21,074 nucleotides of DNA from a virus: positions 1 through 21,074 of IMG/VR virus record IMGVR_UViG_3300037054_000262; one strand, given 5' to 3'. The notes below the pieces were generated by a model. The model was not told the DNA's origin. It worked only from the letters and a program-made list of their open reading frames with translations, and made no database searches. The translations under genes were made by a program, and so were the position numbers. Positions within the stretch are counted from its first letter, which is position 1. Each line of letters begins with the position of its first letter. Below, in pieces: positions 3,342-20,807 of the stretch.

Positions 3342-3355
3342 GGTAGGCTCGCGGG

Positions 3356-4865: not shown

Positions 4866-4897
4866 TCAAAAGACGATCCCCGGGGATCGTCTTTTGA
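4866..4897. repeat. 32-bp perfect palindrome, copy 1 (candidate bidirectional terminator)
   Basis: The left arm TCAAAAGACGATCCCC is followed at once by its exact reverse complement. The right side ends in TTTT and the left side in AAAA, so RNA from either strand gives a GC-rich stem followed by a U-run. This copy lies in the divergent gap between the minus-strand KTSC gene and the plus-strand gene at 4993. Three further copies with the same 26-bp core are in this window. A second short hairpin (GGGGG, then TGCGAGG, then CCCCC) follows near 4901-4919. The palindrome is seen directly; its function is inferred. Confidence 0.9.
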
Positions 4898-4992
4898 GTC
4901 AGGGGGTGCGAGGCCCCCCGGGTTGTTGCGTGGCCGTGGGATGCCCGTTATGGCTCAGGAGACGGATCCCGGGGGTCCAGACCAGGAGCAAC

Positions 4993-5202
4993 ATGGCGAT
5001 CAATGGATCCTTCAAGATTTCGGACGGCGAGACCTCAGCACCTCTGCCGCCCGTGCAGCCGCCACAGAGACTCCCGCTCCCGAGCTCCGAGAACTCAAAC
5101 GGGCGCGAGCACTCACCGTCGATCCCGTGGCCGCCTGCGCTCGACACTCCCGCGGGGGAGACGATTCCCGGCCCCGCAAAACCGTACAAATCTCTGCGCT
5201 GA
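4993..5202 (+). CDS. Small proline-rich hypothetical protein
   Basis: This 69-residue protein is supported by a clear Shine-Dalgarno (AGGAG, 6 nt before the ATG at 4993), although the same frame is open far upstream. The composition is low-complexity: a short N-terminal KISDGETSAPLPP segment, then a Pro/Ser-rich middle. It ends in KPYKSLR. The next gene, also tiny and disordered, ends in TPFKNLR, so the two share a C-terminal P-[YF]-K-x-L-R motif and may be paralogues or clients of one partner. The position, between the portal/gpF genes and the decoration and scaffold genes, suggests a virion or assembly role. I do not recognise a family. Confidence 0.6.
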   Translation: MAINGSFKISDGETSAPLPPVQPPQRLPLPSSENSNGREHSPSIPWPPALDTPAGETIPGPAKPYKSLR

Positions 5203-5250
5203 CGCGCGAAACGTCTCCGCTCAACCTATCGAAAGGCCACAGGTAACATC

Positions 5251-5517
5251 ATGGCAATGCAGAATGGTCTCCCGAACAACGACTCCCCCCCGTTCGCGAC
5301 AAGCGGCGGATCTCCCTCGGTGAATAGTGGCGGCGGCGGTGGAACCCACATGCCGAAAGACCGTCCCCAATCGGAGGCGCGACCCGAGTGTGAACCGTCC
5401 CCCGCCGAGATCCCGGCCGGCGGCAAAGTTCTGTTGGCGGATCCGACAGGGTCCGCTGGGCAGTCTGGGGCGGTTGTGGGCGTGAACGGCGAGACCCCGT
5501 TCAAGAACCTTCGCTGA
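5251..5517 (+). CDS. Small Gly/Pro-rich hypothetical protein
   Basis: This is an 88-residue protein starting at ATG 5251, preceded by a GAAAGG purine stretch about 14 nt upstream and ACAGGT closer in, so the Shine-Dalgarno is modest. The N-terminal half is disordered, with a GGGGG run; the C-terminal 35 residues are less disordered (IPAGGKVLLADPTGSAGQSG) and end in TPFKNLR. The last five residues echo those of the preceding gene. The TGA stop is 2 nt before the start of the next gene, so translation is probably coupled. There is no recognised family. A flexible decoration or cement protein, or a scaffold accessory, are possibilities only. Confidence 0.6.
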   Translation: MAMQNGLPNNDSPPFATSGGSPSVNSGGGGGTHMPKDRPQSEARPECEPSPAEIPAGGKVLLADPTGSAGQSGAVVGVNGETPFKNLR

Positions 5518-5519
5518 AG

Positions 5520-5939
5520 ATGGACGGCCCCTCCGGATACCAGATCACTTTTTCGGACGTTCTGACGGTCGGGCCGGCGCAGTCTTCCGATTGCACGTTT
5601 CCGGCGGGCGCGAGTTTGATCCCGTTCGCGACGAACCCGAACCCAAAGTTCGTCGCGGTTTCGACCGGCGACATGCAGGCGGCGCTCAACAACCTCACGT
5701 TCACGGCGCTCCCGGGTGTCGGCGCCGGCGGGGTCGTGACCCAGGGGACGTTCCTCTACTTCCGGTGCAACGCGGCGTTGCAGGTCCGGACCACGACATT
5801 CAACTCGGGCGGGAACGTCGTCGCGGTCGAGGTCGTGAACGGACTGAAGGTCGTCGAGTACGACCCCGGCGCGTACTTGGTGCTGCTGGAAGTGCTCGGA
5901 CAAGGCCAAGTCGAATATTTGGTCGCGGGCCCGGTATAG
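5520..5939 (+). CDS. Beta-rich putative virion protein
   Basis: This 139-residue protein starts 2 nt after the previous stop (TGAAGATG), with no strong Shine-Dalgarno, which points to translational coupling. It is built of alternating short hydrophobic strands and glycine turns throughout (YQITFSDVLTVGP, LTFTALPGVGAGGVV, VVAVEVVNGLKVVEYD, YLVLLEVLGQGQVEYLVAG). It has no signal peptide or membrane segment. The compact beta composition and location ahead of scaffold and capsid genes fit a head decoration or spike-base protein. I do not recognise the family, so the role is inferred from context. Confidence 0.65.
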   Translation: MDGPSGYQITFSDVLTVGPAQSSDCTFPAGASLIPFATNPNPKFVAVSTGDMQAALNNLTFTALPGVGAGGVVTQGTFLYFRCNAALQVRTTTFNSGGNVVAVEVVNGLKVVEYDPGAYLVLLEVLGQGQVEYLVAGPV

Positions 5940-6009
5940 AAACGAGACACCTGAACGCCGGACAGATAGCTTCGGCGGTTGAATCCCCACAATTGGAGAA
6001 CCTACGAAG

Positions 6010-6726
6010 ATGATCACAACGCTCTCGAACAACCTCGTCGCTGCTTTCAACCGTGCCAACCTGAACAGCCTCTCGGGTATGTTCGCGTCCGTTGGGCTCG
6101 GGACTCAGCTCCGGCAAAAGCTTCATCACACGCTCCGGAACGTCGTCCCGACGACCGACCCGAACGAAGTCGCGTCGAACGTCTCGGTCGTGCTTCCGGA
6201 CGACGCCAAGGCTTCGACGCTCGTGGCCGTGTATGCACGCGCGGGGAGCGGTACGGCGGGCAACCTCACCGTCGAGGCTCCAGGATCGTCGCTCTCGGCC
6301 GGGCAGTGCATGTTGAGCCCGAACGGAAACGTAATCTTCTACGCCGCCGACGCGTGGACGCTCGTCGATATTGAGTATCGCCCGATGGCGCAGGATTGCG
6401 TCGAGGCAACGCTCCCGTGTGTGTCTGGAGTCGTGACGCTCCCCCCGGGTCTCATCGCCCCGTACAGCAACGCCGCGGGGGTCGCGGTCGCGGGCGGAGC
6501 CGTGACGCTCATGGAAGCGCAGCGCGCCGACACCTCGACCGCGAACCTCACCGTTGCGGCACCGGCGGCGACCAACACCTCGACCGGTACCGCGCACTTC
6601 AACCTCGCGAAGACGACCGTACTGCTCGACTCGGCGGATTCCGCGACGATGGTCCGGGTTAAGCTCGGGATCGTGAGCCAATACGACCTAAACGGTCTCC
6701 TCGAGGCCGCATCGCTCTTCATCTGA
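6010..6726 (+). CDS. Putative head decoration/structural protein with internal duplication
   Basis: This is a 238-residue protein starting at ATG 6010. A GGAG about 12 nt upstream and a closer CGAAG are the only ribosome-binding candidates. Residues 1-50 are helical and polar. The rest is beta-rich and contains two similar units, about residues 71-124 and 165-219. Each has an NLTV-x-A-P strand, a Ser/Gly turn, an N-x-x-x-V strand and an AD-x-x-T-x-V-x-[IV]-x-[YL] end. This strand pattern is common in phage proteins encoded just before scaffold and major capsid genes, which supports a decoration or structural assignment without proving it. A hairpin terminator follows the stop after about 20 nt, so this is probably the last gene of its transcription unit. 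Confidence 0.65.
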   Translation: MITTLSNNLVAAFNRANLNSLSGMFASVGLGTQLRQKLHHTLRNVVPTTDPNEVASNVSVVLPDDAKASTLVAVYARAGSGTAGNLTVEAPGSSLSAGQCMLSPNGNVIFYAADAWTLVDIEYRPMAQDCVEATLPCVSGVVTLPPGLIAPYSNAAGVAVAGGAVTLMEAQRADTSTANLTVAAPAATNTSTGTAHFNLAKTTVLLDSADSATMVRVKLGIVSQYDLNGLLEAASLFI

Positions 6727-6746
6727 TCGACTGAAACGCGCACCCG

Positions 6747-6783
6747 GAGGGCAAGCTGGCGATAGGCCGCCTTGCCCTCTTTT
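6747..6783 (+). terminator. Intrinsic terminator before scaffold gene
   Basis: The stem GAGGGCAAG (6747-6755) pairs perfectly with CTTGCCCTC (6771-6779) across a 15-nt loop, and TTTT follows. It lies 20 nt after the upstream stop and just before the scaffold ribosome-binding site at 6789-6793. It may be leaky and set the ratio of scaffold to upstream proteins. Confidence 0.75.
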
Positions 6784-6804
6784 CGTTTGGAGGCAAAGGA
6801 CATC

Positions 6805-7686
6805 ATGACGACTGCAAACACGGAACAGAACCCCACCGGAGCACTCAACATTCCCTCGCCCGAGGTAGGGGCGCCGATCACGGGGCCGATCAGGGCGCCA
6901 CAATCGGGCATTAGCGATGCCGAGGTGGCGGCCGCGCTCGCGGGAACCCCGGCCGCCGCTCCTGCGACTTCGGCGCCTGCTCCCGCGCAGACTTCGGTAC
7001 CGGTGATCGACGTCGACGGCGACGCCGACATCCCGCAGGACGCGGAGTTGATTCGCCTCTCGCGCCACGCGCTGAAGAGCCGACTCGAGCGCAACACCCG
7101 AAGCGAATTGAAGTCGCGATTCGGCACAGACAACGTCGACGAGATTAAGGGGAAGCTCGAACGTCTTTCGAAGTTCGAGGCCGAACAGGAGACGCAACGG
7201 GTCGCGCAACTCTCGGAGATCGATCGCGAGCGCGAACTTCGCACGAAGGCCGAGGGTGAGCGGGACCAGTATCGAAAACAAGTCCTGGAGATCAAGACCG
7301 GGCATTCGTTGCGACAGGAGCAGACCCGGGTCGAGCGTATCGCGGGCGAGCACATGAACCCGCTGTACATGAAATACGAGATCCCCGAGTTCGCGCGTTA
7401 CCTCAAGAACACGTTTTCGCGCGAAGAACTGAAGAATCTGTCGGACGACAAGATCGCAGAGTACTTCAGCAAGCTCGCGCGCGAGCGCCCCGAGACCGCC
7501 AAGGTCGCGGCGGCCGTCGTGGCTCCCGTGCCGCGCGTCGCTCCGCTGACCAACGGTGCTCGGACGACCGGTGAAGCTCCCCCGCGGGGGCCAGAGCAAC
7601 CCCAGAGTCTGAGTCCCTCGGCTCCAAACGCGCTAAGTTCTGCGGCCGCGCGTGCAGAGGCTCGCCGCCAGGGATACAACTACTAG
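6805..7686 (+). CDS. Capsid scaffolding protein
   Basis: This 293-residue protein is encoded directly before the major capsid gene. Scaffolds organise capsid subunits into a procapsid and are then removed. Residues about 1-75 are low-complexity Ala/Pro/Thr-rich. Residues about 90-185 form a long charged, coiled-coil-prone helix (RHALKSRLERNTRSELKSRF through FEAEQETQRVAQLSEIDRER). A conserved-looking MNPLYMKYEIPEFARYLKN segment follows, then a disordered Pro/Ala tail ending in a basic ARRQGYNY, the type of C-terminus that contacts capsid protein in other scaffolds. I start at ATG 6805 because GGAGG and AAAGGA precede it; an upstream in-frame ATG at 6772 lies inside the terminator hairpin. No protease motif is visible. 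Confidence 0.75.
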   Translation: MTTANTEQNPTGALNIPSPEVGAPITGPIRAPQSGISDAEVAAALAGTPAAAPATSAPAPAQTSVPVIDVDGDADIPQDAELIRLSRHALKSRLERNTRSELKSRFGTDNVDEIKGKLERLSKFEAEQETQRVAQLSEIDRERELRTKAEGERDQYRKQVLEIKTGHSLRQEQTRVERIAGEHMNPLYMKYEIPEFARYLKNTFSREELKNLSDDKIAEYFSKLARERPETAKVAAAVVAPVPRVAPLTNGARTTGEAPPRGPEQPQSLSPSAPNALSSAAARAEARRQGYNY

Positions 7687-7709
7687 GCGGGGCGATAATC
7701 GATCCGCGA

Positions 7710-7743
7710 GGGGGGAAGCCGTTCCGACAGCTTCCCCCCTTTT
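7710..7743 (+). terminator. Strong intrinsic terminator after scaffold gene
   Basis: The arm GGGGGGAAGC (7710-7719) pairs perfectly with GCTTCCCCCC (7730-7739) over a 10-nt loop, followed by TTTT and a second T-run. It is 24 nt after the scaffold stop, so scaffold and capsid are probably transcribed from separate starts. Confidence 0.85.
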
Positions 7744-7752
7744 CATTTTGAA

Positions 7753-7781
7753 TTGACGCGTGCGGTAGTGGCACGTAGGTT
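7753..7781 (+). promoter_or_regulatory. Candidate sigma70-type promoter for the major capsid gene
   Basis: TTGACG is followed by a 17-nt spacer and TAGGTT. The -35 matches consensus at five of six positions; the -10 keeps T1, A2 and T6. It sits directly after a strong terminator and before the capsid leader, where a promoter would be needed. Predicted transcription start is near 7788. It is inferred from sequence only. Confidence 0.5.
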
Positions 7782-7785
7782 CAGT

Positions 7786-7833
7786 GGGCCGGGGCATCCC
7801 CAAAACATCCCCTGTCTGGGGGTGCCCTGGCCC
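7786..7833 (+). other. 16-bp leader hairpin at the 5' end of the capsid mRNA
   Basis: GGGCCGGGGCATCCCC (7786-7801) pairs over all 16 positions with GGGGGTGCCCTGGCCC (7818-7833), using two G-U pairs, around a 16-nt loop. G-U pairs in an otherwise perfect helix point to an RNA rather than a DNA structure. The predicted transcription start of the promoter at 7753-7781 falls at the base of the helix, so the capsid transcript would begin with it. The remaining leader, 7834-7984, has no convincing gene. A protective 5' stem that raises mRNA half-life is the simplest inference. No T-run follows, so it is unlikely to be a terminator. Confidence 0.6.
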
Positions 7834-7984
7834 TACATCAGAAGCCCCGATACGCGGCACACCGGCGGTAACAGGTGGGATTCCCGGGAACGAAGATGTT
7901 GGAGGACGGCACGCCGAAGGTTCGCGCGATGAGCGCTCGAGCTGGACGGCCAACAACCTCTGACGAACGTTTTGGAGATTCCAC

Positions 7985-9379
7985 ATGGCTGACATCATTC
8001 TTGGCATTCCGGCGAGCATCCTCGCGCTGAATCAGAAGGGCTTGCTCGAGCGCGCCTTTCACGACGGGCTCTTCCCTAACCTCGCGTATCGCGCTGAAGC
8101 GATGCCCGAGGAATGGCCGGCCAACACCGGAACGCAGCAGTTCCAGACCCGCCCGGGCCTCTTGGCGCCGTCGGTGCTCCCGATCACGCCTGGTCAGGAT
8201 CCTTCGAGCTCGCAGGTCCCGTACGAGCAGTGGGTCGCGCAACTCGCGCAGTTCGGTGGGTCGATCGACACCCACATGCCGACGTCCGTCACGAGCTCGG
8301 CGAACCTGTTTCTTCGAAACATCAAGCAGCTCGGGCTCCAGGCTGGCCAGTCGGTCAACCGTATCGCCCGCAACGCGCTCTTTCAGGCGTACCTGAGCGG
8401 GCAGACGGTTTCGATCGCCGCCACGGGGTCTAGCGACACGACCCTTCGAGTGGCGTCGCTCAACGGATTTACGGACGTTATCATCCTGGGCTCCAACGTG
8501 GCACCGCAGCCCGTCAGCACCCAGTACCCGCTTCCGATCACGATCGGGACCGGTTCTGCGGCGGCATCGAATACCGTCGTCGGGTTCTCGCCCGACACCC
8601 AGAGTGACCCGACGGGTCCCGGGACCCTGACGCTTGGTTCGACGGTCGGGGCCGTGTTTGCGGCTCGCTCGACCGTCATGTCCGCGTACGCGCCGATCAT
8701 CGTTCGGTCGGCTCCCGGCAACTCGGTCGACGCCATCAGCGCCGCTGACGGCATCACGCTCCAGCAGTGCATCAACGCGGCGGCGTTCCTTCGTCGCGCG
8801 AACGTGCAGCCCCACGATGACGGCTTCTTCCACGTGCACGTGAGCGCGCTCGGGGCCGCGCAGTTCTTCGCCGACCCCGTGTTCCAGCGATTGAACCAGT
8901 CGCTGCCCGAGTACGTGATCTACAAAGAAGGATTCATGGGCCAGATGGCCGGCATGCTTTTCTTCCTCAACCTCGAGTCCCCCGAGTCTTTCAACACGGG
9001 CGCGCAGGTCGCGACCTCGGGTCTCGGTATCCTGGGTTCGGAAATCGGCGGCGAAGTCGTGAACGGAACAGGCGTCAACATCGGGCGCGCGATCATCACC
9101 GGGAAGGGCGCGATCTACGAGCGCTATCTCGACGAGTCCGCGTACATGACCGAGGCTGGGACGACCGGCAAGACCGGTGAGTTCTCGGTCTCGAACTCGG
9201 GCCTTCAGATCCTCACGGAGCGAATCCGCCTGATCCTCCGCGCACCGCTCGACAAGCTGCAGCAAGTCGTCTCGACGTCCTGGTCGATCTCGACATCGTT
9301 CCCGACCCCGTCCGACATCACGGCCCCGAGTGGGGCACAGCGGTTCAAGCGCTCAGTTGTGCTAGAGTACGCAACCTGA
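7985..9379 (+). CDS. Major capsid protein
   Basis: This 464-residue protein follows the scaffold and has its own terminator-promoter-leader arrangement, as expected for the most abundant virion protein. The ATG at 7985 has GGAG 7 nt upstream. Features typical of HK97-fold capsid proteins are the N-terminal helix-turn region (LLERAFHDGLFPNLAYRAEA), a mid-chain beta insertion rich in T/S/G (about residues 140-235), and a helical P-domain with HVHVSALGAAQFFADPVFQRL. Next comes a strand/loop segment, MGQMAGMLFFLNLESP, that resembles the histidine-containing region of the N4 gp56-type capsid family. The C-terminus ends in SVVLEYAT. I see no sign of a cleaved prodomain or a protease gene. Subfamily is uncertain; the role is well supported by context and length. 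Confidence 0.8.
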   Translation: MADIILGIPASILALNQKGLLERAFHDGLFPNLAYRAEAMPEEWPANTGTQQFQTRPGLLAPSVLPITPGQDPSSSQVPYEQWVAQLAQFGGSIDTHMPTSVTSSANLFLRNIKQLGLQAGQSVNRIARNALFQAYLSGQTVSIAATGSSDTTLRVASLNGFTDVIILGSNVAPQPVSTQYPLPITIGTGSAAASNTVVGFSPDTQSDPTGPGTLTLGSTVGAVFAARSTVMSAYAPIIVRSAPGNSVDAISAADGITLQQCINAAAFLRRANVQPHDDGFFHVHVSALGAAQFFADPVFQRLNQSLPEYVIYKEGFMGQMAGMLFFLNLESPESFNTGAQVATSGLGILGSEIGGEVVNGTGVNIGRAIITGKGAIYERYLDESAYMTEAGTTGKTGEFSVSNSGLQILTERIRLILRAPLDKLQQVVSTSWSISTSFPTPSDITAPSGAQRFKRSVVLEYAT

Positions 9380-9427
9380 AGTACTCGATTTTAGATCGGA
9401 CTAGCTCAAGTAAGTCATAGCTGCCAG

Positions 9428-9465
9428 CGAGGGGGGTTCCGGGTTTCGATCTGGCGCCCCCCTCG
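9428..9465 (+). terminator. GC-rich hairpin after the capsid gene
   Basis: CGAGGGGGG (9428-9436) pairs perfectly with CCCCCCTCG (9457-9465) around a 20-nt loop, 48 nt after the capsid stop. No T-run follows, so it may be a weak terminator, an attenuator, or an RNA-processing or stability element that separates high capsid expression from the neck genes. Confidence 0.45.
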
Positions 9466-9500
9466 GCACGTCTGTAGATTCGCCGGTGGAGGCCGCACCA

Positions 9501-9890
9501 ATGGCACGGAACACACGGACGATCAGGCAGCAGGAAACAGGATACGGGGCCGGCGAGGCACCGCCGATGCCCGGGGGTTCCCCGGGGGTAGTTCCGTCGG
9601 AGCAGAAGAAGCTCTCCCCCGCGGGGGTCGTGCACGGGCATGGTGTCTCGAGGGCATCGCTATCGCGCGTCGCTGGACCGGAGCCCCGGCGCTATATGGT
9701 CGCCGGGGGACCGACGTCGGTGATGTACGGGGGATGCCGGACAAAGCTTCCGCTTGGAAAGGTCTTGAGCGAGCAGGCGTTCGACATCGACGCGATCCGC
9801 CGGCAGGGTGTGAAGCTCGAGGAGATCGCGCGCGTTCCGGTTCCGGTCGAGCCGACCGTGGAAGTGGTGCCGCCCCCCGAGGCCGCGTAG
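9501..9890 (+). CDS. Hypothetical protein after capsid gene
   Basis: This is a 129-residue protein. I chose the ATG at 9501 because GGAGG lies 8 nt upstream; a GTG at 9486 in the same frame overlaps that ribosome-binding site. Residues 1-60 are disordered (Pro/Gly/Ser). About residues 63-110 look ordered: a PRRYMVAGGPTSVMYGGCRTKLP strand-turn region followed by a helical LSEQAFDIDAIRRQGVKLEEI. The tail is Pro/Val-rich. The gene sits between the capsid and connector genes and is separated from the next gene by only 9 nt, so it is likely a small virion or head-completion protein. I do not recognise the family. Confidence 0.6.
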   Translation: MARNTRTIRQQETGYGAGEAPPMPGGSPGVVPSEQKKLSPAGVVHGHGVSRASLSRVAGPEPRRYMVAGGPTSVMYGGCRTKLPLGKVLSEQAFDIDAIRRQGVKLEEIARVPVPVEPTVEVVPPPEAA

Positions 9891-9899
9891 GGGTAGAGC

Positions 9900-10304
9900 A
9901 TGATTACTGAGGCGGAGAAGGTCTGTGCACGCTCGCATTTGGGGTACCTGAATGTGGCGCAGTCGAGCACCTTCTCGCTCGGGGTACCGGCGGGGGTCCA
10001 GACCGAGTTCACAATCGAGGGTGCGTTCTCGCGCATCCTCCCGCAAGCGGAGCCGCTCTTTCGACGGCACCTGGCGATCCTGGACGCGCTCGAGAGTCAG
10101 CTTCTCGAAAACGCGCCCAACGTGGCGGTGAAGAAGATCGGAACGATCGAGATCGACCCCAAAGCGTTCCGGCAGACGGTCGAGCAGTACAGGTTTTGGG
10201 GGCGTGGCCTCGCGAACCTGATGGGGATTGCGCCCAACCCGTTCGATCAACGGTTCAGCCAGTGGACGAGCGGTGGGGGCATCAACGCGAAGGTTTCGGG
10301 TTAG
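9900..10304 (+). CDS. Putative neck/head-completion protein
   Basis: This 134-residue protein begins 9 nt after the previous stop, with AGGGG and AGAG ahead of the ATG. It opens with ITEAEKVCARSHLGYLNVAQ, continues with a beta segment (STFSLGVPAGVQTEFTIEG), and then a long helix (PLFRRHLAILDALESQLLENAPN), followed by KKIGTIEIDP and a C-terminal helix with RFWGRGLANLMGIAPNPF. No signal peptide or catalytic motif is seen. Size, helix content and position between capsid and tail-completion genes fit a connector or adaptor protein binding the portal; this is inferred from context, and I do not recognise a named family. Confidence 0.6.
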   Translation: MITEAEKVCARSHLGYLNVAQSSTFSLGVPAGVQTEFTIEGAFSRILPQAEPLFRRHLAILDALESQLLENAPNVAVKKIGTIEIDPKAFRQTVEQYRFWGRGLANLMGIAPNPFDQRFSQWTSGGGINAKVSG

Positions 10305-10314
10305 GAGGCATCGA

Positions 10315-11924: not shown

Positions 11925-11937
11925 AGAGGAGCCGTCG

Positions 11938-12690: not shown

Positions 12691-12698
12691 GGTCGGGG

Positions 12699-12730
12699 TC
12701 GAAAGACGATCCCCGGGGATCGTCTTTCGA
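12699..12730. repeat. 32-bp perfect palindrome, copy 2
   Basis: The arm TCGAAAGACGATCCCC is followed by its exact reverse complement, starting 8 nt after the upstream stop. Compared with copy 1, one A-T pair in the arm is replaced by G-C on both sides, so the symmetry is kept by a paired change. A GC-rich stem followed by TTT on either strand fits an intrinsic terminator ending the capsid-neck unit. Confidence 0.9.
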
Positions 12731-12746
12731 GGGGATCTGGGAGTTA

Positions 12747-12834: not shown

Positions 12835-15258
12835 ATGTACACCCGAAGGTTTCTGAGCGATCCAGGCGACGCGGTCCTGCTCAACATTGAGTCCGTCAAC
12901 ATCTTGGACCAGACGCCCCCCTCGTCGATCCAGGGAGTCGGGACCGGGTCGGTGCTGTTGGTCGGTGAGTTCGAGAACGGGCCGTACAACACCCCCCAGC
13001 AGTTGCTCGGCACGAGCGACCTCGCGCGAACCTGGGGGACGCTCGGGTACCAGTACGGCGGGCTGCCCGCGCAGTACCCGTCGGCGCCGGTCCGCAAAGC
13101 GGATTCCGCGATCGCCCCCGAGTACTGGAACGGAAACGCGTTCGTGCAGATCTCGGGTCAGACCTACGCGTCGCTGATCCTGGTGCGGGTCAACACTTCG
13201 ATCGGGGCCGTGGCGTTCGACCCATGCGCCTACATCGAGGGAATCGCCGAGTTCTCGTACCAGTTGACGACCGGGCAAGTGCTGCAGCTCTCGCTATCGC
13301 CGTACTCGACCGCGGTCGCGACCGCGGTGGCGCTCCCGGCCGCGATCATCTACGCGACTTCGACCACGGGGTTCCCATCCTCGGGCAACATTACGATCGA
13401 CGGTCAGACGATCGCCTACACGGGCGTGACGGCCGGATCGAAACCGTCCTTCACGGGATGCACGGGGGGCACTGGTTCGATCAACGTCGGGGACACCGTC
13501 CTCGGGGCCCTCACGACCACGTCCGCGACCTTCACGGGCGTGCCGGCGACCGTGGACGCTTCCGGGGGGACGTTCCCCACGACGTTCGCGGGCGGGAACA
13601 CACTCACGCTCGCGTACGACAGCAACCAGAACTTCACGACCACGTTCCAGGCTACAGACCAGTCGGCACTTCAGGTCGCGGCGCGAATCAACAGCTTCGC
13701 GGGATTCGCGTTCGTGACTGTCTCGGGCGGGCAGCTGGTCCTCACGGGGCGTCAGCCGGGGACCGGCGGGTCCGTTCAGGTCGTCGGCGGCTCCGTGGGG
13801 GTCTTGGCGGATCTCGGGCTCACAGCCGGCGTCACGGCCGGGACAGGCAACGTCGGGAACCTCAACCAGATCAAGTTCGCCGAGATCGCGACGGTCGTGC
13901 AGGGCGCGATCTCCGGGACCGCGGTACAGCTCAACAGCTCGGGAGCGATTCGGATTTCCAACGTCGGGACTCCAGGGACCGGCGGGCTCTTGGTCGCGGC
14001 TGGCACGACCGCGCAGAACCTCGGGTTCACGATCGGGCAGGTCAACGGCGCGGGCGCGTACCAGGGCGGGACGCTTCCGGCCGGGACGGTCGTGCAGAAC
14101 TCGGCCGGGACGGTCGTGTTGGTGACGACCCAGGACGTGGTAATCCCCGCCGGCACCGCCGGGCCGTTCTCGGCGCCGGTCAGGTTCGCGGTCGATGATG
14201 GGAGCGGGGTCGGGTCGGCATCAGCCACCATTACGGTCATGGCCGTCACGCCTGCGATCGGAAGCTTCGCGTGCACGAACCCTCTCCCGATCAGCAACGC
14301 GATGTCGGAGTCGCAGATCGACGCCGCGTACTCGGCCGCGATTCAGTCGACGACCGACATCAACACGATCGCGAAGGTCGCGAACATCATCGTGTCGGCT
14401 CGCCAGAGCAATACCGTTCGAAGCCAACTGAAACAGAACGCCCTCTACGCGTCCGCGAATGGGTGTTACGGCCGCGTGGCGTGCGTGAGCCCCCCGCTCA
14501 ACACCCCCCCGCAGGTTGCCCTCAGCACCATCGCGGCGCCGGGCGTGGGCGCGACGTCGGACCAGCGGGTCATATACTGCTACGTCGGGGCCAACACGTA
14601 CGTTCCGCTGATCGGTCAGGTCGGGCTCGCGGGCGGGACTGGGTTCACGGCAACGGGCAACGTGGACGTCCATTCCGATACCCTGATGGCGTCGATCCTG
14701 AGTCAACTCAACCCGGAGGAGAACCCCGGGCAGGAGACGACATTCACGGCCAACGTGAACGGGATCGAGACTGGCGCGAACCTGCAGGGGTTCGACGTTC
14801 AAGATTACACCGCGTTCAAGGCGGCGGGGATCGCGGCACTTCGGATCGACGAGGGGATCGCGGTCTTCCAGTCGGGTGTCACGTCCGTCAACCCGCTCAT
14901 GTTCCCGTCGCTCGTTCGAATCAGTCGCCGCCGGATGGCAGACTTCATCCAGGACAGCAGCGCGATCGCGGCGAAGAAGTTCGGAAAGAAGCTCTCGACC
15001 GCGATGCGGCGGAACGCGCTCAAGAGCGAACAGAGCTCGTTCCTTGAGGGGCTCCTGTCGCGCAACAACCCGGGGGCGCAGCGGATCGGCGGGTACACGA
15101 TCTCGGACGTGGATGGGAACTCGGACACGAGTCTCGCGGCCGGGCAGTACCGAATCACCCAGAACGTCCGAACGCTCGCGAGTTTGGACTCGATCACGAT
15201 TCAATCGACGATCGGCGAGAACGTCGTCGTGACCGAAATCCTCCCGCAGAAATCCTGA
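12835..15258 (+). CDS. Contractile tail sheath protein with inserted beta domains
   Basis: This 807-residue protein has AAGGAG 9 nt before its ATG. The sheath forms the contractile cylinder around the tail tube. N-terminal residues 1-155 contain the usual sheath opening (SIQGVGTGSVLLVGEFENGPYN, then a DLARTWG strand-helix). The C-terminal part, about 480-807, has the conserved ending: RRRMADFIQDSSAIAAKKFGKK, an SFLEGLLS helix, and the final strands LASLDSITIQSTIGENVVVTEI that mesh with neighbouring subunits. Between them lies about 320 residues of insertion: an FPSSGNITIDGQTIAYTGV segment (about 184-202), a flagellin/hook-IN-like unit (about 253-330), and a segment near 412-460 resembling the baseplate gpJ-type A-G-T-x-V...F-x-T...I-P-A-G domain. 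The insertions probably project from the sheath surface. This gene makes the phage a myovirus. Confidence 0.85.
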   Translation: MYTRRFLSDPGDAVLLNIESVNILDQTPPSSIQGVGTGSVLLVGEFENGPYNTPQQLLGTSDLARTWGTLGYQYGGLPAQYPSAPVRKADSAIAPEYWNGNAFVQISGQTYASLILVRVNTSIGAVAFDPCAYIEGIAEFSYQLTTGQVLQLSLSPYSTAVATAVALPAAIIYATSTTGFPSSGNITIDGQTIAYTGVTAGSKPSFTGCTGGTGSINVGDTVLGALTTTSATFTGVPATVDASGGTFPTTFAGGNTLTLAYDSNQNFTTTFQATDQSALQVAARINSFAGFAFVTVSGGQLVLTGRQPGTGGSVQVVGGSVGVLADLGLTAGVTAGTGNVGNLNQIKFAEIATVVQGAISGTAVQLNSSGAIRISNVGTPGTGGLLVAAGTTAQNLGFTIGQVNGAGAYQGGTLPAGTVVQNSAGTVVLVTTQDVVIPAGTAGPFSAPVRFAVDDGSGVGSASATITVMAVTPAIGSFACTNPLPISNAMSESQIDAAYSAAIQSTTDINTIAKVANIIVSARQSNTVRSQLKQNALYASANGCYGRVACVSPPLNTPPQVALSTIAAPGVGATSDQRVIYCYVGANTYVPLIGQVGLAGGTGFTATGNVDVHSDTLMASILSQLNPEENPGQETTFTANVNGIETGANLQGFDVQDYTAFKAAGIAALRIDEGIAVFQSGVTSVNPLMFPSLVRISRRRMADFIQDSSAIAAKKFGKKLSTAMRRNALKSEQSSFLEGLLSRNNPGAQRIGGYTISDVDGNSDTSLAAGQYRITQNVRTLASLDSITIQSTIGENVVVTEILPQKS

Positions 15259-15404
15259 AAGGTAGATGTGCCGTTATCGCGAATGACGTTTCGATATGCC
15301 GGGGAGATTCTTTTCAGACCAGGAGTTCCGTCACGTTCGACAACTGTCCATCTGCCAAAGTGCTGCCTCACGAGATTCACTGTTCTCATGGGCGAGCGTA
15401 ACAT
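15259..15404 (-). pseudogene. Possible remnant of an HNH/AP2-type endonuclease N-terminus
   Basis: On the minus strand an ATG at 15404 opens a frame reading MRTVNLVRQHFGRWTVVERDG near its start. The F-G-R-W-T-V-V-E core resembles the short segment at the N-terminus of many phage HNH and AP2-domain homing-type proteins (usually G-x-R-F-G-R-[LW]-T-V-x-x). The similarity then fades and the frame runs into the sheath gene's 3' end. The region is about 50% GC while its neighbours are above 60%. No Shine-Dalgarno precedes it. I read this as a possible decayed insertion, or chance. Confidence 0.3.
15376..15404 (+). promoter_or_regulatory. Candidate promoter for the tail tube gene
   Basis: TTCACT, a 17-nt spacer and TAACAT lie 28 nt before the tube start codon. 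Each hexamer matches four of six consensus positions. The AT-richer gap and the high copy number needed for tube protein make a promoter plausible here. Confidence 0.35.
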
Positions 15405-15431
15405 GAATACAGTGGGAAACTAAGAGGGCGA

Positions 15432-15869
15432 GTGACCGCACAAAGGCTGAAAGGGCAAGAAGTTTCAATCGTCATCTCCGCGGGAGGTGAGGTGCAAAAC
15501 ACCTTGGTGGACATCCAGGACTTCCACGTTACGGCTCAGTTCGAGATCATCTCGAAGGGGTACCTGGGTGAGAAGACCGAACGAAAGGACATGATCTTCA
15601 AGGGGGTCAAGTTCGAGATGCAGTTGAACGTCCATACTCAGGACTACCTGTCGTTTGTGAAGGACGTGCACGACAAGGCTCAGCGCATCACGCCCGACAC
15701 GATCTTCAACATCACGGCGACGTTGAACTTCCCGAACGGCGATACCCCGTCGGTGCTGTTGAATGACGTGTCGTTCGGCGAGCTCCCGACCGACATCGCG
15801 TCCCGGGGGGATTACGTGGCGATCAAGATTCAGGGGGAGTGCCCGGATCAGACGATCCAGCTCTCCTGA
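15432..15869 (+). CDS. Tail tube protein
   Basis: This 145-residue protein follows the sheath, the standard position of the tube protein in myoviruses. Its hexamers stack to form the channel for DNA. It is beta-rich with the characteristic layout of tube subunits: an N-terminal strand (EVSIVISAGGEVQ), a loop and strand with GYLGEKTERKDMIFKGVKFEMQLNVHT, a short helix (YLSFVKDVHDKAQR), and C-terminal strands through DVSFGELPTD and YVAIKIQGEC. It has no cleavable signal or membrane segment. The start is a GTG at 15432 with AGAGGG only about 3 nt upstream, a tight spacing; no in-frame ATG close by is better placed. Confidence 0.75.
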   Translation: MTAQRLKGQEVSIVISAGGEVQNTLVDIQDFHVTAQFEIISKGYLGEKTERKDMIFKGVKFEMQLNVHTQDYLSFVKDVHDKAQRITPDTIFNITATLNFPNGDTPSVLLNDVSFGELPTDIASRGDYVAIKIQGECPDQTIQLS

Positions 15870-15872
15870 TTG

Positions 15873-16001
15873 AACGGTAGGAGGCGCGCGACCGTTCCCG
15901 TTGCAAACGGGTAGCGGTCGTCATCATGAGGGGGGACCGTTGGGTTTCCGGGTTTTGCAGACCCGGTGGGTGCGCCTCCTATCGGCCCCGCGGTCCCCCT
16001 T
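15873..16001 (+). other. Structured leader RNA region before the chaperone genes
   Basis: This gap between tube and chaperone genes holds no gene but several clear helices. Helix A joins TAGGAGGCGC (15878-15887) with GCGCCTCCTA (15972-15981). Inside it, CGACCG/CGGTCG (15889-15894 with 15915-15920) encloses CCCGTT/AACGGG with a 3-nt loop. CCGGGT/ACCCGG (15948-15953 with 15961-15966) forms another hairpin. Helix B joins GGGGGACCG (15931-15939) with CGGTCCCCC (15991-15999). B begins inside A and ends outside it, so the two together make a pseudoknot or are alternatives. A competing pair, AACGGT/ACCGTT, exists at 15873-15878 and 15891-15896. Function is unknown; control of chaperone expression is possible. 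Confidence 0.55.
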
Positions 16002-16023
16002 CGCCATTCAGAACGAGGCGCAC

Positions 16024-16635
16024 ATGACCGAGCAGAGAACAGCAGGGCCGCGTAATTTTGCCGACGCGATTAAGTCGGCGTCCGCGAAAGACGTCGAGGT
16101 CAACCGGATGACCGACGAGGAAGCGGAGCTCGCCGAGCAATCCGCGGAATCGATCGACCTCACGGGAGGAGACGATTCCCCGTTGGGCCGGAAGGCCGCG
16201 GACCCTCCGGACGAGAACGCGGTCCCCACGTGGGCGAAGATTCCCCCGGACCTCGTTTTTCCGAAAGGGAAGCAAGTGGGGTTTGTGCTGTTTAGAGCCG
16301 AGTGGACGGATCGTCCGGACCTCGGGGACCGGATGATCCTCACATGGGGGCTGACGGACGCGGAAGAGAAGCTGGCCATCAAGGCGACGCGCGGCGAGAG
16401 CGGCAGGACCCTATCCGAGTCGGCCAAGCGGACGATTCGCGCGATCGATGGCGTGCGTGCCGATTGGACCGGGAAGGTCGGGCCGGGGAACGTGGATCGA
16501 TTCTGGAATGAGGTCGGTCCGAAGTGCCGCCCGTTAATCATCAACGCGTATTGGAAGACACACTCGTTGACCCAGGAGGAGACCGCCGATTTTTTCGTCA
16601 ATTGCTTCACCTTCAGGAGTGCCGTGGCTCAGTAG
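16024..16635 (+). CDS. Tail assembly chaperone, short form (lambda G-like)
   Basis: This 203-residue protein is read in the zero frame and stops at TAG 16633-16635. ACGAGG lies 6 nt before the ATG. Residues 1-65 are acidic and disordered. The folded part begins around residue 68 (VPTWAKIPPDLVFPKGKQVGFVLFRAEWTD) and ends with a helical segment, LTQEETADFFVNCFTFRSAVAQ. Its identification as the short tail assembly chaperone rests on the layout: it lies between tube and tape measure genes, and a second frame overlaps its 3' end in the -1 direction with a slippery heptamer. Such proteins bind the tape measure protein and guide tube polymerisation, and are absent from the finished virion in lambda. 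Confidence 0.7.
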   Translation: MTEQRTAGPRNFADAIKSASAKDVEVNRMTDEEAELAEQSAESIDLTGGDDSPLGRKAADPPDENAVPTWAKIPPDLVFPKGKQVGFVLFRAEWTDRPDLGDRMILTWGLTDAEEKLAIKATRGESGRTLSESAKRTIRAIDGVRADWTGKVGPGNVDRFWNEVGPKCRPLIINAYWKTHSLTQEETADFFVNCFTFRSAVAQ

Positions 16636-16943
16636 AGGACCCGTGGGAGACCCCGGACCCGGACGACGTCGAAGACTCGCTGAAAGGGGTCGCGGGGGAG
16701 CCGGGGTTGATGGTGACGTGGACCGAGACTCCCGTGCAGGCGTGCTGGAATTCGATCATCCAGATCGACCCGGTGGAGCTCGAGAAGCTCCGGATGCACC
16801 AGAAGATGGCGCTGGCGCGGTACGGTCGTCAGTCGCTCCTGCAGTGGGGAGACACCGACGTGATCGAGATCCGGGGATGGTACGAAGCGCTCCGCGACCT
16901 GATGAAGATGGAAGTCGCGGAACCCGGGGGGGAGGACCGATAA
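16024..16943 (+). CDS. Tail assembly chaperone, frameshifted long form (lambda GT-like)
   Basis: A -1 shift at T TTT TTC (16590-16596) joins the first 191 residues of the short chaperone to 115 residues read from CGT at 16596 to the TAA at 16941-16943, giving 306 residues. The downstream part continues with an acidic linker (SVEDPWETPDPDDVEDSLKG), then a folded-looking helical region, TETPVQACWNSIIQIDPVELEKLRMHQKMALARYG and IRGWYEALRDLMKMEV. In the -1 frame an ATG occurs at 16524, but it has no convincing ribosome-binding site and the peptide before the shift would be out of the coding register of the upstream gene. By analogy with lambda gpGT, the extension recruits tail tube subunits. The stop codon overlaps palindrome copy 3. 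Confidence 0.7.
16574..16596 (+). promoter_or_regulatory. -1 programmed frameshift signal
   Basis: The slippery heptamer T TTT TTC is in the correct phase: zero-frame codons GAT, TTT, TTC can re-pair as TTT, TTT one base back. AGGAGG at 16574-16579 lies 10 nt upstream, a Shine-Dalgarno-like element at the distance known to stimulate -1 shifting in E. coli dnaX. No convincing stem-loop is seen just downstream. The zero-frame stop is 36 nt after the heptamer. Confidence 0.75.
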
Positions 16944-16967
16944 AGACGATCCCCGGGGATCGTCTTT
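16942..16967. repeat. 26-bp perfect palindrome, copy 3
   Basis: AAAGACGATCCCC is followed by its exact reverse complement and then one more T. It begins inside the TAA stop of the long chaperone form, so the stop codon is part of the left arm. This is the shortest copy because the next outer pair is T-T. As with the other copies, a stem followed by TTTT fits a terminator, here before the tape measure gene. Confidence 0.9.
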
Positions 16968-16989
16968 TGGCGTGACCCGGCGGGATCGT

Positions 16990-17018
16990 CGCCGCCGGGG
17001 TGGCGGCGCGGTAGGCTC
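16990..17018 (+). promoter_or_regulatory. Hairpin and TAGGCTC box before the tape measure gene
   Basis: CGCCGCC and GGCGGCG (16990-16996 with 17002-17008) form a tight hairpin with a 5-nt loop. GGTAGG just after it is the only ribosome-binding candidate for ATG 17024. The same TAGGCTC plus 5 nt plus ATG arrangement precedes the gpF-like gene at 3344-3358. The box could serve translation, or be a TANNNT-type -10 for a leaderless transcript. Confidence 0.3.
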
Positions 17019-17023
17019 TGCGG

Positions 17024-18958
17024 ATGTCTGACGAATCCGCAGAGGTGAAGGTTAAGTTAGTCGTCGATGACACGTCGGCGGCGACGCTTGATTCGGTCAA
17101 GCACGGGTTCGAGGGTGTCGACGGCGAGGCCAAGAAGACGACGGCCGACCTCGAGAAGCTGAAAGAACAACTCCAACAGATCCATCACCAGACGCCGCCG
17201 TCGAATCCGTTCGCGGGACTCGCGGAGGAGATCGCGAAGCTGCAGCCGAAGCAGCATGATTCGAGCGCCGGGATCGCGAAAGAGGTCCTGAAGGGGAACA
17301 TCTACTTTGGAATCATGAAGGAAGCGGTCGGCCTCGTCGGCGAGGGGATCGAGCAAGCGTGGCACTTCACCGAGCAGCTCGTCGGGAGCTCGGTCGAGGC
17401 CGCGGAGGCGCAAGAGAAGCAAGAGAAGCAGATGGCGAATTTCCTGTCATTGATGGACGGCGGGAAGCACTCGATGCAGGACATGCGGCAGTACACGGGC
17501 GAGCTCCGGGAGGAGTTCGCGCGGTTCGGCACAACCGCGGGAGTCGCGACCAAGGATCTCGTCGAGGGGTTCGATCACTTGGTCGCGCGCGGGACGATGT
17601 CGAGCGAGAAGGCCAAGGAGCTGACGGAGCAGATGGCGATCGTCGGTCGGGTTGTGCCCGGGGGGATGTCGGCGCTCACGCAGGGGATGTCGGGGGTCGA
17701 GATGGGGATGGTGAGGGCCCGTAACCCGATCGTTCAGCTGATCGCCGCCACCCATACGCTCGAGGGGAACGCGAAGTCGGTCGCGAGCGCGATGCAGAAG
17801 ATGACGCCCGAGAAACAGATGGAGTTGGCCGAGAAGGCGATCGCCAAGCAGGCGGAGTCGATGAAGCGGATGGGGGCGGTCCCGCCCGACCTGGGGCAGT
17901 TGAAAGCGTCGTTCGGGAACGTCGGAGAATCGTTCCGGGAGTCGATGGGGCAACCCATGATGGCGGCGTTGATTCCGAATCTGGTCAAGCTTCGGGACTT
18001 CCTGATCAAGCACGCGGACGAGATCAAAGCGTTCGGGCAGAAGATCGGGGACGCGGCCGCGAGTGCGATCGAGTACGTCAGCATCGCGATCGACGGAATC
18101 TATGCCGGCATGACGGAGAACTGGGAGTCCTTCCGAGACACGTTCGAAAAGATCTACGGTGGATGGAAAGACGCGTGGTTGAACGGGGAACAATCCACGA
18201 CCGAGATCAAAAAGGACTTTGAGACCGTGGGGCACGTGCTCCGGGATGTCTTCGAGGACATCCTCAAGTACACGAAGGCGGCGGTCGAGGTCGCGATGAA
18301 GGGGAATGACATTCTCCACCTCAACCCCATCGGGACTACGCAGGCGGGGGTCGCGTCAGAGGCGCTCGAGCACGCGGCCAGGACCCCGGAATCTGACGAG
18401 GCATTCAAGAACCGCAAAGACGAGTACAGCGCGAGCGCGACCGCGATGGGCGCGGACCCGGAGAAGATCGACGCGTACGTGAATTCGATGAACACGCTTC
18501 ACGACGCGTTTAGTGCCGCGGCGCAAGATGACAAGTCCGCCGTGATGGCGGATTCCTGGGGGAAGGTCAACGAGTCGATTCAGTACAACATCCAGAACCA
18601 TCGGGAGGGGCTGAACGAGTACATCCTCGCGACCATCCAGGGGAGCGCTGCCGCCAAGAAGGCGTTGCACGACGGAGCGGCCGACATCGGGAACGGTGCC
18701 GACGCGTTGATGAAGTTGATCGCCGAGAAGGCGCCCGCGCTCGCGAAGGAGATCGCCAACATCGGGAAGACGGCGATCTCGGCGTCAGGGGGAGTTCACG
18801 CTAAACAGCCGGTCCAGATCTTCAATGGTGGGATTCACATCAAGCAGGATTTCAAAGACAACGACCCGGACCGGATCGCGATCATCTTCCGGAAGGAATT
18901 GTCGAACGCCGCGGCGTCGCGGACGGTCTCGCGGAACTCCCCGTACGGGAGCCTATGA
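17024..18958 (+). CDS. Tail tape measure protein
   Basis: This 644-residue protein, directly after the frameshifted chaperones, is the expected tape measure, which sets tail length and is ejected with the DNA. At the roughly 0.15 nm per residue found for lambda-type tape measures it would correspond to a tail under about 100 nm. The sequence is mostly alpha-helical and charged, with coiled-coil-prone stretches (residues 30-50, EAKKTTADLEKLKEQLQQI; and 120-145). An Ala/Met/Gly-rich middle runs about 165-310 and includes GMSALTQGMSGVEMGMVRA and ASAMQKMTPEKQMELAEKAI. More amphipathic helices lie near NLVKLRDFLIKHADEIKAF. No peptidase or lysozyme motif is apparent. The C-terminus ends in a short beta segment (HAKQPVQIFNGGIHIKQDF) and a Ser/Arg tail. 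It is relatively short for a myovirus tape measure. Confidence 0.8.
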   Translation: MSDESAEVKVKLVVDDTSAATLDSVKHGFEGVDGEAKKTTADLEKLKEQLQQIHHQTPPSNPFAGLAEEIAKLQPKQHDSSAGIAKEVLKGNIYFGIMKEAVGLVGEGIEQAWHFTEQLVGSSVEAAEAQEKQEKQMANFLSLMDGGKHSMQDMRQYTGELREEFARFGTTAGVATKDLVEGFDHLVARGTMSSEKAKELTEQMAIVGRVVPGGMSALTQGMSGVEMGMVRARNPIVQLIAATHTLEGNAKSVASAMQKMTPEKQMELAEKAIAKQAESMKRMGAVPPDLGQLKASFGNVGESFRESMGQPMMAALIPNLVKLRDFLIKHADEIKAFGQKIGDAAASAIEYVSIAIDGIYAGMTENWESFRDTFEKIYGGWKDAWLNGEQSTTEIKKDFETVGHVLRDVFEDILKYTKAAVEVAMKGNDILHLNPIGTTQAGVASEALEHAARTPESDEAFKNRKDEYSASATAMGADPEKIDAYVNSMNTLHDAFSAAAQDDKSAVMADSWGKVNESIQYNIQNHREGLNEYILATIQGSAAAKKALHDGAADIGNGADALMKLIAEKAPALAKEIANIGKTAISASGGVHAKQPVQIFNGGIHIKQDFKDNDPDRIAIIFRKELSNAAASRTVSRNSPYGSL

Positions 18959-19021
18959 AGTAGCGTTTTCGCACGCCTGCCGCGAGAGTGGTGTGGCTCA
19001 ACAGGAAGGAAGCTCTCAACC

Positions 19022-19282
19022 ATGCCCTCAGCGAACCCATTTGCTCCGTCAGAATCGTCGTCCAGCAGCTCTTCGAGCTCGTCCAGCGACTCCAGCTCAT
19101 CTTCGAGCTCCGGCTCTTCCTCGAGCGACTCTAGCTCGTCCAGCGGCTCTTCGTCGTCGAGTAGCTCGAGTTCAAGTTCGTCCAGCGGCTCTTCGTCATC
19201 GAGCAGCTCCAGCGATGACGGGGGGGGTGCCCTGGCGATGTGGGCTCATCGGATGGGGGGGAATGGCGCGCCCCCGATGTGA
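19022..19282 (+). CDS. Poly-serine low-complexity protein
   Basis: This is an 86-residue protein with 50 serines; residues 12-64 are serine broken only by single Asp or Gly residues. A good Shine-Dalgarno (GGAAGGA, about 10 nt) precedes ATG 19022. The tract uses both unrelated serine codon families, about 31 TCN and 17 AGY codons. The serine content is therefore kept at protein level and is not just DNA repeat expansion, although a 20-nt unit starting TCGTCCAGCGG is repeated exactly at 19136 and 19178. The N-terminus is SANPFAPSE and the end is DDGGGALAMWAHRMGGNGAPPM. The portal has a similar Ser/Asp stretch. It lies between tape measure and baseplate genes; a flexible linker, chaperone or host-kinase substrate are all conceivable. 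No family is recognised. Confidence 0.7.
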   Translation: MPSANPFAPSESSSSSSSSSSSDSSSSSSSGSSSSDSSSSSGSSSSSSSSSSSSSGSSSSSSSSDDGGGALAMWAHRMGGNGAPPM

Positions 19283-19351
19283 TTAGAGGCACTTCTGTTC
19301 GGTTGAGTGGTAGGGTGCGGCATCGCGATCTTCTCCGTCGGTTGCGGTCAG

Positions 19352-19381
19352 GGGCCGGGGTGCTCGCACTACCGCCGGCCC
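19352..19381 (+). other. Hairpin in the leader of the LysM gene
   Basis: GGGCCGG (19352-19358) pairs with CCGGCCC (19375-19381) around a 16-nt loop. The 145-nt gap from 19283 to 19427 holds no gene that I can support. No Shine-Dalgarno is visible before the ATG at 19428, so this hairpin and its surroundings may influence initiation. Confidence 0.35.
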
Positions 19382-19427
19382 GCTTTCGATTCTAGCGTCG
19401 AGCGCCTCTTCCGGGCGACGCTGCGGC

Positions 19428-20678
19428 ATGTCGTACAGCAGCACGATCGCGATCGAGGAGATCGACGCCAACGGGTCGACGGTCATGCGGAGCGTGATGC
19501 TCGTCGGCCCTTCGCTCCCGTTGATGGAGACCGAGTGGTCGGCCAAGAACCAGCTCGCGACGACGTGGTATCCCGGGAACTCCGCGGAGGCGACGCAACA
19601 GAACCTCGGTCCACGGCTGCTTCCCAGCACCTGGAAAGGCGATTGGCGCCGGACCATGATGGGCGGGACTCCCGCGCAGTATTGGGATGAGAACGGGACC
19701 TACCAGCCGATCGTGGACCCGTCGGTGTTGAGGGACGCCCTCGAGGGAATCTTCACCGCCGGGAGACGACTGCGCGTCACGTGGGCGACCCAGCAGCAGC
19801 CCGACGGGTCCGCCGCGGGTCAGTACGCGATCGCGGGGTCGATCGTTCGCGAGGGTCGGGCCGACACGTGGAAGTTCACACACCGGACGATCCACGACAT
19901 CACGTGGGAGATTACGTTCGATTGGGTGAGCCGCGGTGGAGCCGTGACGCCCCGGGTCGTGAGCACGCGCGACGATACCCTGGTCAAGACCGCGGCGCCC
20001 TACGCGGCGGCGATCCAAGGGCTCATCACCGCGAGTCGCGCGGCACAAGTTCAACAACTCGCGCCGTCGGCGTTGACGCTCGGGAACCTCGAGGGGGTCG
20101 CGCCCGCGCCATTGGCCGCCATGACGACGCTCTCGGTCACGACCGTGCAGCTCCAGAACGATCTTGTGTCGATCGCCGGCATCGGGGCGAACCTCGCCGC
20201 TCAACCGATCCAAGTCGCCCAGATGGCGCTCGCGCATGCCGCGAACGCGTTGGCGGTCACGCAGACCCAGTACCAGGAGTTTTCGGCGATCCCCGCGGAG
20301 GTCATGACGTCTCAGGATGATGCGATCTCGGTCTTGTCCGCGTACGCGCTCTTTGGAGCGGTGCAGGACCAGGCGCAGCAAGCCGAGATCGCCGCCTACA
20401 CGTTCTATCGGCAGATGCGGCGCGCGGTCCCGACCCACACGTCGGCGTTGAACGGGTTGAACTCGGTCGCGCAGACGCCTGCCCCGGACACGATCCTCGC
20501 CTATTACACGACCCGAGATCGTGATACCGCGCAGCGAATCTCGATGACGTTCTACGGGACCCCCGACCACGCGGCCGACATCCTTCGCGCGAATCGGTTA
20601 CCTTGGTATCAGGCGACGTTCCCCTCGGGGAAACAACTCGTGATTCCTGTGATCTCATCTTCGACCGCGACCGTCTGA
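19428..20678 (+). CDS. Baseplate/tail protein with C-terminal LysM-like domain
   Basis: This 416-residue protein follows the tape measure region, where myoviruses encode XkdP- or gp53-like baseplate proteins. Residues about 360-410 (YYTTRDRDTAQRISMTFYG, then ILRANRLPWYQATFPSGKQLVIP) match a LysM-type module: a start of D-T-A-x-x-I-[SA], a central Y/F-G, an N-x-L and a final G-x-x-L-x-I-P. LysM domains bind peptidoglycan. The N-terminal 180 residues are beta-rich with many tryptophans (STWKGDWRRTMMGGTP, RLRVTWATQQQ, ITWEITFDWVSRG), and the middle, about 195-345, is Ala/Gln-rich helix. It probably joins the tube end to the baseplate. The start has no clear Shine-Dalgarno. Another palindrome and a pentamer repeat follow the stop. 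Confidence 0.65.
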   Translation: MSYSSTIAIEEIDANGSTVMRSVMLVGPSLPLMETEWSAKNQLATTWYPGNSAEATQQNLGPRLLPSTWKGDWRRTMMGGTPAQYWDENGTYQPIVDPSVLRDALEGIFTAGRRLRVTWATQQQPDGSAAGQYAIAGSIVREGRADTWKFTHRTIHDITWEITFDWVSRGGAVTPRVVSTRDDTLVKTAAPYAAAIQGLITASRAAQVQQLAPSALTLGNLEGVAPAPLAAMTTLSVTTVQLQNDLVSIAGIGANLAAQPIQVAQMALAHAANALAVTQTQYQEFSAIPAEVMTSQDDAISVLSAYALFGAVQDQAQQAEIAAYTFYRQMRRAVPTHTSALNGLNSVAQTPAPDTILAYYTTRDRDTAQRISMTFYGTPDHAADILRANRLPWYQATFPSGKQLVIPVISSSTATV

Positions 20679-20698
20679 TGTGTCCCGAAGGACCCTAG

Positions 20699-20773
20699 CC
20701 TTGCCATGCCTTGGCGCGCCCTGCCTCGCCTCGCCTTGCCCCGCCGTGCCCGGCCAGGCCCCGCCCCGCCCCG
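20699..20773. repeat. Degenerate CCNNG pentanucleotide tandem repeat, 15 units
   Basis: Exactly 75 nt divide into 15 units of 5: all 15 end in G and 14 begin with CC (the exception is GCGCG). The middle two bases vary freely: TT, AT, TT, CT, TC, TC, TT, CC, GT, CG, AG, then CC three times. Drift is greatest at the left and the last three units are identical CCCCG. The array abuts palindrome copy 4 with no gap. Reading on the minus strand gives a repetitive R-G-x-A-R peptide, but I see no support for it as a gene. Confidence 0.85.
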
Positions 20774-20807
20774 CTCAAAAGACGATCCCCGGGGATCGTC
20801 TTTTGAG
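20774..20807. repeat. 34-bp perfect palindrome, copy 4
   Basis: CTCAAAAGACGATCCCC is followed by its exact reverse complement; this is the longest copy. It lies between two convergent genes, the LysM-type gene (stop at 20678) and the minus-strand gene ending at 20815, exactly where a terminator serving both strands would be useful. The core is identical to the other three copies. Confidence 0.9.

Follow-up and report, generated by a model that had tools for sequence, protein, structure and literature searches.

Perfect palindromes without a loop recur at nearly even intervals along the genomes of most phages in a large, uncultured group that forms one family of large phages, and four copies of one such palindrome were recognised in a viral fragment of 21 kb. 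The sequence of the palindrome is private, or nearly so, to each phage, is conserved as sequence and not as structure, and changes in concert at all sites of a genome, while the positions of the sites drift. The palindromes are probably recognised by a dimeric DNA-binding protein of phage origin; that a protein binds them, that the phage encodes it, and what its job may be are the parts of this reading that we infer.

Palindromes of the window and its relatives

The window, an entire virus record of 21,074 bases, contains the 26-bp core AAAGACGATCCCCGGGGATCGTCTTT exactly four times (Table 1), and both the positions and the gene context given in the original prediction were borne out, with one copy in a divergent gap, two in co-directional gaps and one in a convergent gap. 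The core was found in none of 100 dinucleotide-preserving shuffles with three mismatches allowed, so the four-copy repeat is not due to chance. Copy 2 is flanked by the stop of a head/neck gene (12690) and the start of the tail sheath-like gene (12835), copy 3 overlaps the TAA stop of an ORF ending at 16943 and is followed by a gene starting at 17024, and copy 4 is placed after a LysM/baseplate-hub-like gene. At copies 2 and 3 the hexamer TAGGCT stands ~57 bp downstream of each centre. Searches with 24-mers and 18-mers found the core in no other IMG/VR record, a 20-mer of the core had no match in 84,980 GTDB genomes, and Rfam gave no match in the window. The window also encodes a lipoprotein-like protein (MKKKIGFIGLAVLAMSGC; 10315-10650, + strand) within the head/neck module, and a low-complexity, serine/aspartate-rich ORF with ~42-bp imperfect repeats (19022-19282, + strand).

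Table 1. Palindrome copies and query genes in the window (positions in the 21,074-base record)
Feature	Coordinates	Strand	Description
Palindrome copy 1	4866..4897	strandless	core 4869-4894; arms 16 bp, loop 0; divergent gap
Palindrome copy 2	12699..12730	strandless	core 12702-12727; arms 16 bp, loop 0
Palindrome copy 3	16942..16967	strandless	core = whole copy; arms 13 bp, loop 0
Palindrome copy 4	20774..20807	strandless	core 20778-20803; arms 17 bp, loop 0; convergent gap
Major head protein gene	7985..9379	+	phrog_1357, E=2.5e-9; query for relatives
Large tail protein gene, sheath-like	12835..15258	+	assigned from position and relatives; query for relatives

Because the window is the whole record, its genomic neighbourhood had to be taken from relatives, which were found with the major head protein (20 related loci) and the large tail protein (68 related loci). 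The latter, of 807 aa, matched no PHROG profile and is taken to be a sheath protein from its position and its relatives. A scan for loop-less inverted repeats revealed in many of these loci a repeated perfect palindrome of their own, with another sequence, and whole contigs of 25 relatives were examined. A repeated perfect palindrome was present in 24 of the 38 records scanned, the window counted, giving 306 sites, and 3 further palindrome-bearing records were found by sequence search. The window's relatives have genomes of ~85-100 kb, and near-complete genomes carried 8-34 copies each, with loop-less cores of 14-26 bp that were mostly private to one phage. Palindrome 12-mers typically occurred 5-30 times per genome, compared with 1-4 times in shuffled genomes.

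The palindrome was CCCAAACCCGGGTTTGGG in G001 (26 exact copies), GATTCGAAAAGCGCTTTTCGAATC in G003, GATTGGAAACCCGGGTTTCCAATC in G004, ACCGCAACACGTGTTGCGGT in G006 (34 copies, 15 of them exact), GACGCCGGATCGATCCGGCGTC in G009 and ACCGCGCCGCGCGGCGCGGT in G024. That of G007 was of odd length with a one-base centre, G017 had a near-palindrome, and the scan detected no repeated palindrome in G016, G018, G026 and several short contigs. Three side observations were made in these genomes: a dozen or so promoter-like elements (GACTGGCGCGGGTTCGGGTTTCGGTTTATGGT) lie within 12 kb, at ~26-38 kb, of the palindrome-less G016 (L168); AAACCTTGACAGAAA is present in 8-9 gaps of G014; and many unrelated proteins of G001-G004 open with M(R/K)KRSEV or a comparable basic stretch, which would be in line with a common N-terminal tag or start context.

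Privacy extended to the database searches. The G004 20-mer was found in only 3 IMG/VR contigs, all in the window's family and all multi-copy, and the G009/G010 pattern was likewise confined to multi-copy contigs of the family. Two genomes, G028 and G029, were recovered by palindrome sequence alone; they share the GGAAACCC half-site with G004 and are distant from it nonetheless, at ~38% (G028) and ~33% (G029) amino-acid identity to their relatives in this set. Cultured relatives were represented by distant capsid matches only (Kromp 32%, phiKX1/2 29%). The sole repeated palindrome of Kromp was GTCCTCGAGGAC, in four copies, and the first 50 kb of phiKX1 contained no repeated palindrome.

Sequence, RNA structure and concerted change

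The original prediction preferred orientation-neutral terminators as the function of the palindromes. Bidirectional intrinsic terminators would require RNA hairpins, and every core can form one (-4.2 to -16.4 kcal/mol); in the window the outer arm additionally gives TCTTTT. However, a T-run after the stem (at least 5 T in 8) was present at 0/197 co-directional sites, and a terminator scan of window positions 1-20000 returned no terminator-like match at copies 1-3. Convergent gaps were not enriched, all gap types being occupied alike (0.25 for co-directional, 0.22 for divergent and 0.19 for convergent gaps), and copies occur within genes. When copies of one genome were compared within the core, 3058 pairs were unchanged, 124 were changed on one side and 7 showed paired changes, and the centre, which would form the hairpin loop, matched the arms in conservation and symmetry. 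The lack of a T-run, the conserved loop and the one-sided changes without compensation thus disfavour intrinsic terminators of the ordinary kind in this family and remove the argument from covariation, which leaves the terminator reading highly improbable.

That argument had been drawn from a paired change in the arms, taken as a sign of selection for structure or symmetry, and covariation among relatives had been proposed as a check. The replacement of A-T by G-C in copy 2 is real (TCGAAAG...CTTTCGA versus TCAAAAG...CTTTTGA), but the extra-core symmetry of the window reached only P=0.08 (n=4) and is not general to the element: over 22 genomes, symmetric extension beyond the core amounted to 240 pairs versus 227.5 expected (z=0.69), with no excess, and a few genomes, the window included, show slight extra-core symmetry. 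The cores change mostly on one side, as counted above. A non-complementary flanking pair (C..C or G..G) was present in 16/17 G022 sites, in an orientation independent of gene strand, and most imperfect sites of G029 carry exactly one GTAAACCC half; the unequal half-sites of these two genomes hint at polarity or ongoing change.

Comparison of genomes with related palindromes showed how the sequence evolves. The palindromes of G009 and G010 (68-71% aa identity), GACGCCGGATC and GACGTCGGATC, are one symmetric base pair apart, and the consensus of each holds across its own copies; G021, G022 and G024 also have related palindromes. In orthologous gaps, the site was kept in 4/4 versus 0/30 cases at identities of at least 60%, and in 11/23 versus 7/81 cases at 50-60% identity (P=8e-5), and the correlation was near background below 40% identity. 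Close relatives therefore have their sites in the same gaps, with the sequence changed at all sites together, and such concerted change at conserved gaps is the pattern expected of sites that follow a changing binding protein. Since it is altered at all sites in step, the palindrome looks like a place where a DNA-binding protein of the phage docks, and not like a terminator. Binding by a dimeric regulator or a nucleoid factor, an alternative reading in the prediction, has the best support.

Mobile or selfish short palindromes of the REP/REPIN type, or recombination linkers spread by copying, would also be near-identical within a genome and different between genomes, as the copies are. Against this, the window's family differs from REP/REPIN systems in that no Y1 (RAYT-type) transposase was found in 20 genomes, the flanks of copies are mostly unrelated, the spacing is even and not clustered, and orthologous gaps retain their sites while the sequence changes. 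We consider spread by copying very unlikely.

Placement of the sites and their possible role

Approximately 76% of the palindromes lie in intergenic gaps and 74/306 in called genes, though ~90% of the genomes is coding. In the relatives, exact or one-mismatch copies occur inside conserved genes such as the SbcC-like G004_69 and the portal G012_81, at positions that homologues from many genomes align across; one false gene call was seen, and some in-gene sites may be gene-calling errors.

The sites are ~3-8 kb apart and cover the whole genome, more evenly than by chance. The coefficient of variation (CV) of the spacing was 0.40-0.74 versus ~0.9 expected under a uniform-placement null (Fisher P=3.5e-15 over 13 genomes), and in most genomes spacing was also more even than under a null drawn from real gaps (null CV 0.75-1.03). 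Evenness was confirmed in the held-out genomes G028 (P=0.002) and G029 (P=0.0005). In-gene sites were tested as fillers of holes in the spacing and were not. Even spacing could come from a minimum distance, e.g., through recombination deleting the DNA between close repeats. A tie of sites to particular genes was considered and rejected, because enrichments were weak (best P=2e-3 among many tests) and positions drift.

An even, genome-wide spread that follows neither gene class nor strand nor promoter, together with tolerance of the sites in conserved genes, makes a genome-scale job the most likely one. Under the binding-site reading, each palindrome would be a double-stranded DNA recognition site in which two inverted half-sites of 7-13 bp are contacted by one dimeric protein. 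The specificity of the protein would be private, or nearly so, to each phage, and its drift would drag all 8-34 sites along. The sites might then be loading or anchoring points, with the protein organising, coating or marking the phage chromosome during infection, much as Noc or ParB does from its palindromic sites. Tentatively, and as one possibility among others, the whole may be a code of palindromes, private to each phage and evenly spaced, that a co-evolving dimeric protein reads; this protein, perhaps of ParB/Noc fold, would load every few kb and coat, compact or mark the DNA as self, with specificities so diversified that sister phages would be unable to read each other's mark.

The main functional alternative within the binding model is a stoperator-like or operator array, in which a similar dimeric protein would block elongation or regulate promoters at unit boundaries. 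Scattered genome-specific sites in short gaps typify the stoperators of Cluster A mycobacteriophages (PMC6550527). TAGGCT, which resembles a promoter -10 element, was found 15 times downstream and 3 times upstream of sites, and -10-like elements adjoin some sites of G009, G006 and G028. This enrichment counts against a purely genome-scale reading and fits regulation; with the element downstream at a variable distance (mostly 10 to 57 bp), an effect of some sites on transcription is possible. On the other side, the sites are symmetric and show no strand preference, the three gap types are occupied alike, the TAGGCT distance is not fixed, exact copies lie in conserved genes, 18 genomes lack an integrase, no prophage relatives were found in GTDB via MCP, and an array of this kind does not require even spacing. 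Taken on its own the stoperator-like array is rather unlikely, and a genome-organising job stands about even with the transcription alternative.

Candidate proteins and comparison with known systems

ParB/Noc-fold and sigma-like proteins are the candidate binders. A ParB_N-fold relative was detected by HMM or Pfam in all complete palindrome genomes (G028 and G029 left out): PF02195 was present in 10/18 genomes, and the HMM recovered relatives in the remaining complete ones. In G004 the ParB-fold protein is encoded at L104:6795-7457 on the - strand. The best fold matches of an AlphaFold model of the ParB-like protein were Noc, ParB and KorB. In the modelled ParB/Noc-type fold a strand-like stretch is followed by two C-terminal helices, possibly forming a ribbon-helix-helix, and the C-terminal part differs in some ParB-fold proteins. 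HTH_ParB was over cut-off in none of 20 genomes, with one weak match in G024, and ParA was not found over cut-off. A sigma-factor-like protein was encoded in every complete palindrome genome (PDB FliA E=1.5e-4), in G004 at 59842-60504 on the - strand.

In a partial test of covariation with palindrome similarity, the top families were the all-helical c27, the ParB-like and the sigma-like proteins (P=0.008-0.04 uncorrected), none being significant after correction for 46 families; c27 was modelled at pLDDT 90 and had no fold match. The candidate proteins are also present in the palindrome-less G016. A search for repressors found HTH_3 over cut-off in 2/20 genomes. A dCTP deaminase-like protein common to G004, G005 and G029, which have the same palindrome, was dropped, as its sequence is not that of a DNA binder. 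G003 and G004 encode Tet/JBP oxygenase, amino acid:DNA transferase-like, P-loop kinase and dCMP deaminase genes, whose predicted functions suggest that the DNA of these phages may be hypermodified.

Scattered dyad repeats of unexplained function, until now an oddity known from a single mycobacteriophage cluster, can thus be widespread and fast-diversifying across a whole phage family, and their even spacing points to a genome-scale role. The ~20 natural site/genome pairs are usable for decoding specificity, and the palindromes are a ready signature to bin and type uncultured phages. The question that this raises is directly testable: what is the protein that recognises the mark, and why does the mark recur every few kilobases?

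Noc-binding (NBS) and ParB-binding (parS) sites are loop-less palindromes of 14-16 bp, and Noc sites are dispersed over a genome. The window's family is like these systems in its loop-less palindromes and in encoding ParB-CTPase-fold proteins with Noc as the best fold match, and differs from them in that no canonical HTH_ParB or ParA was found over cut-off and in that the sites are mostly longer and private to nearly each phage. SPBRE, a repeated intergenic element of phage SPbeta, is bound by one phage protein, MrpR, a repressor of tyrosine-recombinase fold, at about ten sites in promoter regions (PMC10516654). The family resembles SPBRE in having a repeated intergenic element within one phage genome and one, here putative, phage-protein binder, but a PF00589 protein was absent from all 18 genomes searched. 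Cluster A stoperators are 20-30 dispersed, asymmetric repressor sites oriented with transcription in temperate phages, with a consensus that varies from phage to phage together with the repressor (PMC6550527). Many dispersed genome-specific sites are common to both; in the window's family these are symmetric and strand-neutral, and neither PF00589 nor ParA was found over cut-off.

The closest known system is the dyad repeat of 17 bp in the Cluster O mycobacteriophages (Corndog and Firecracker). These phages carry ~34 copies of a single symmetric site, often within short gaps and sometimes inside genes, made up of two 7-bp half-sites and a 3-bp spacer with one sequence for the whole cluster; the repeats are absent from the host and from other mycobacteriophages, and the phages have no integrase and encode a ParB-like protein (PMC4351075). 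A role in transcription initiation was judged unlikely, because the repeats are symmetric and not associated with promoters, and no function was settled on (PMC4351075). In Firecracker (L192/L195), the centres of the repeats are mostly TTT/AAA, and the 34 sites are not evenly spaced (CV 1.02 versus null 0.96). Many copies of one symmetric site in gaps and some genes, the lack of an integrase and a ParB-like protein are thus shared with Cluster O, whereas the window's family has loop-less cores of 14-26 bp, nearly one sequence per phage, and even spacing.
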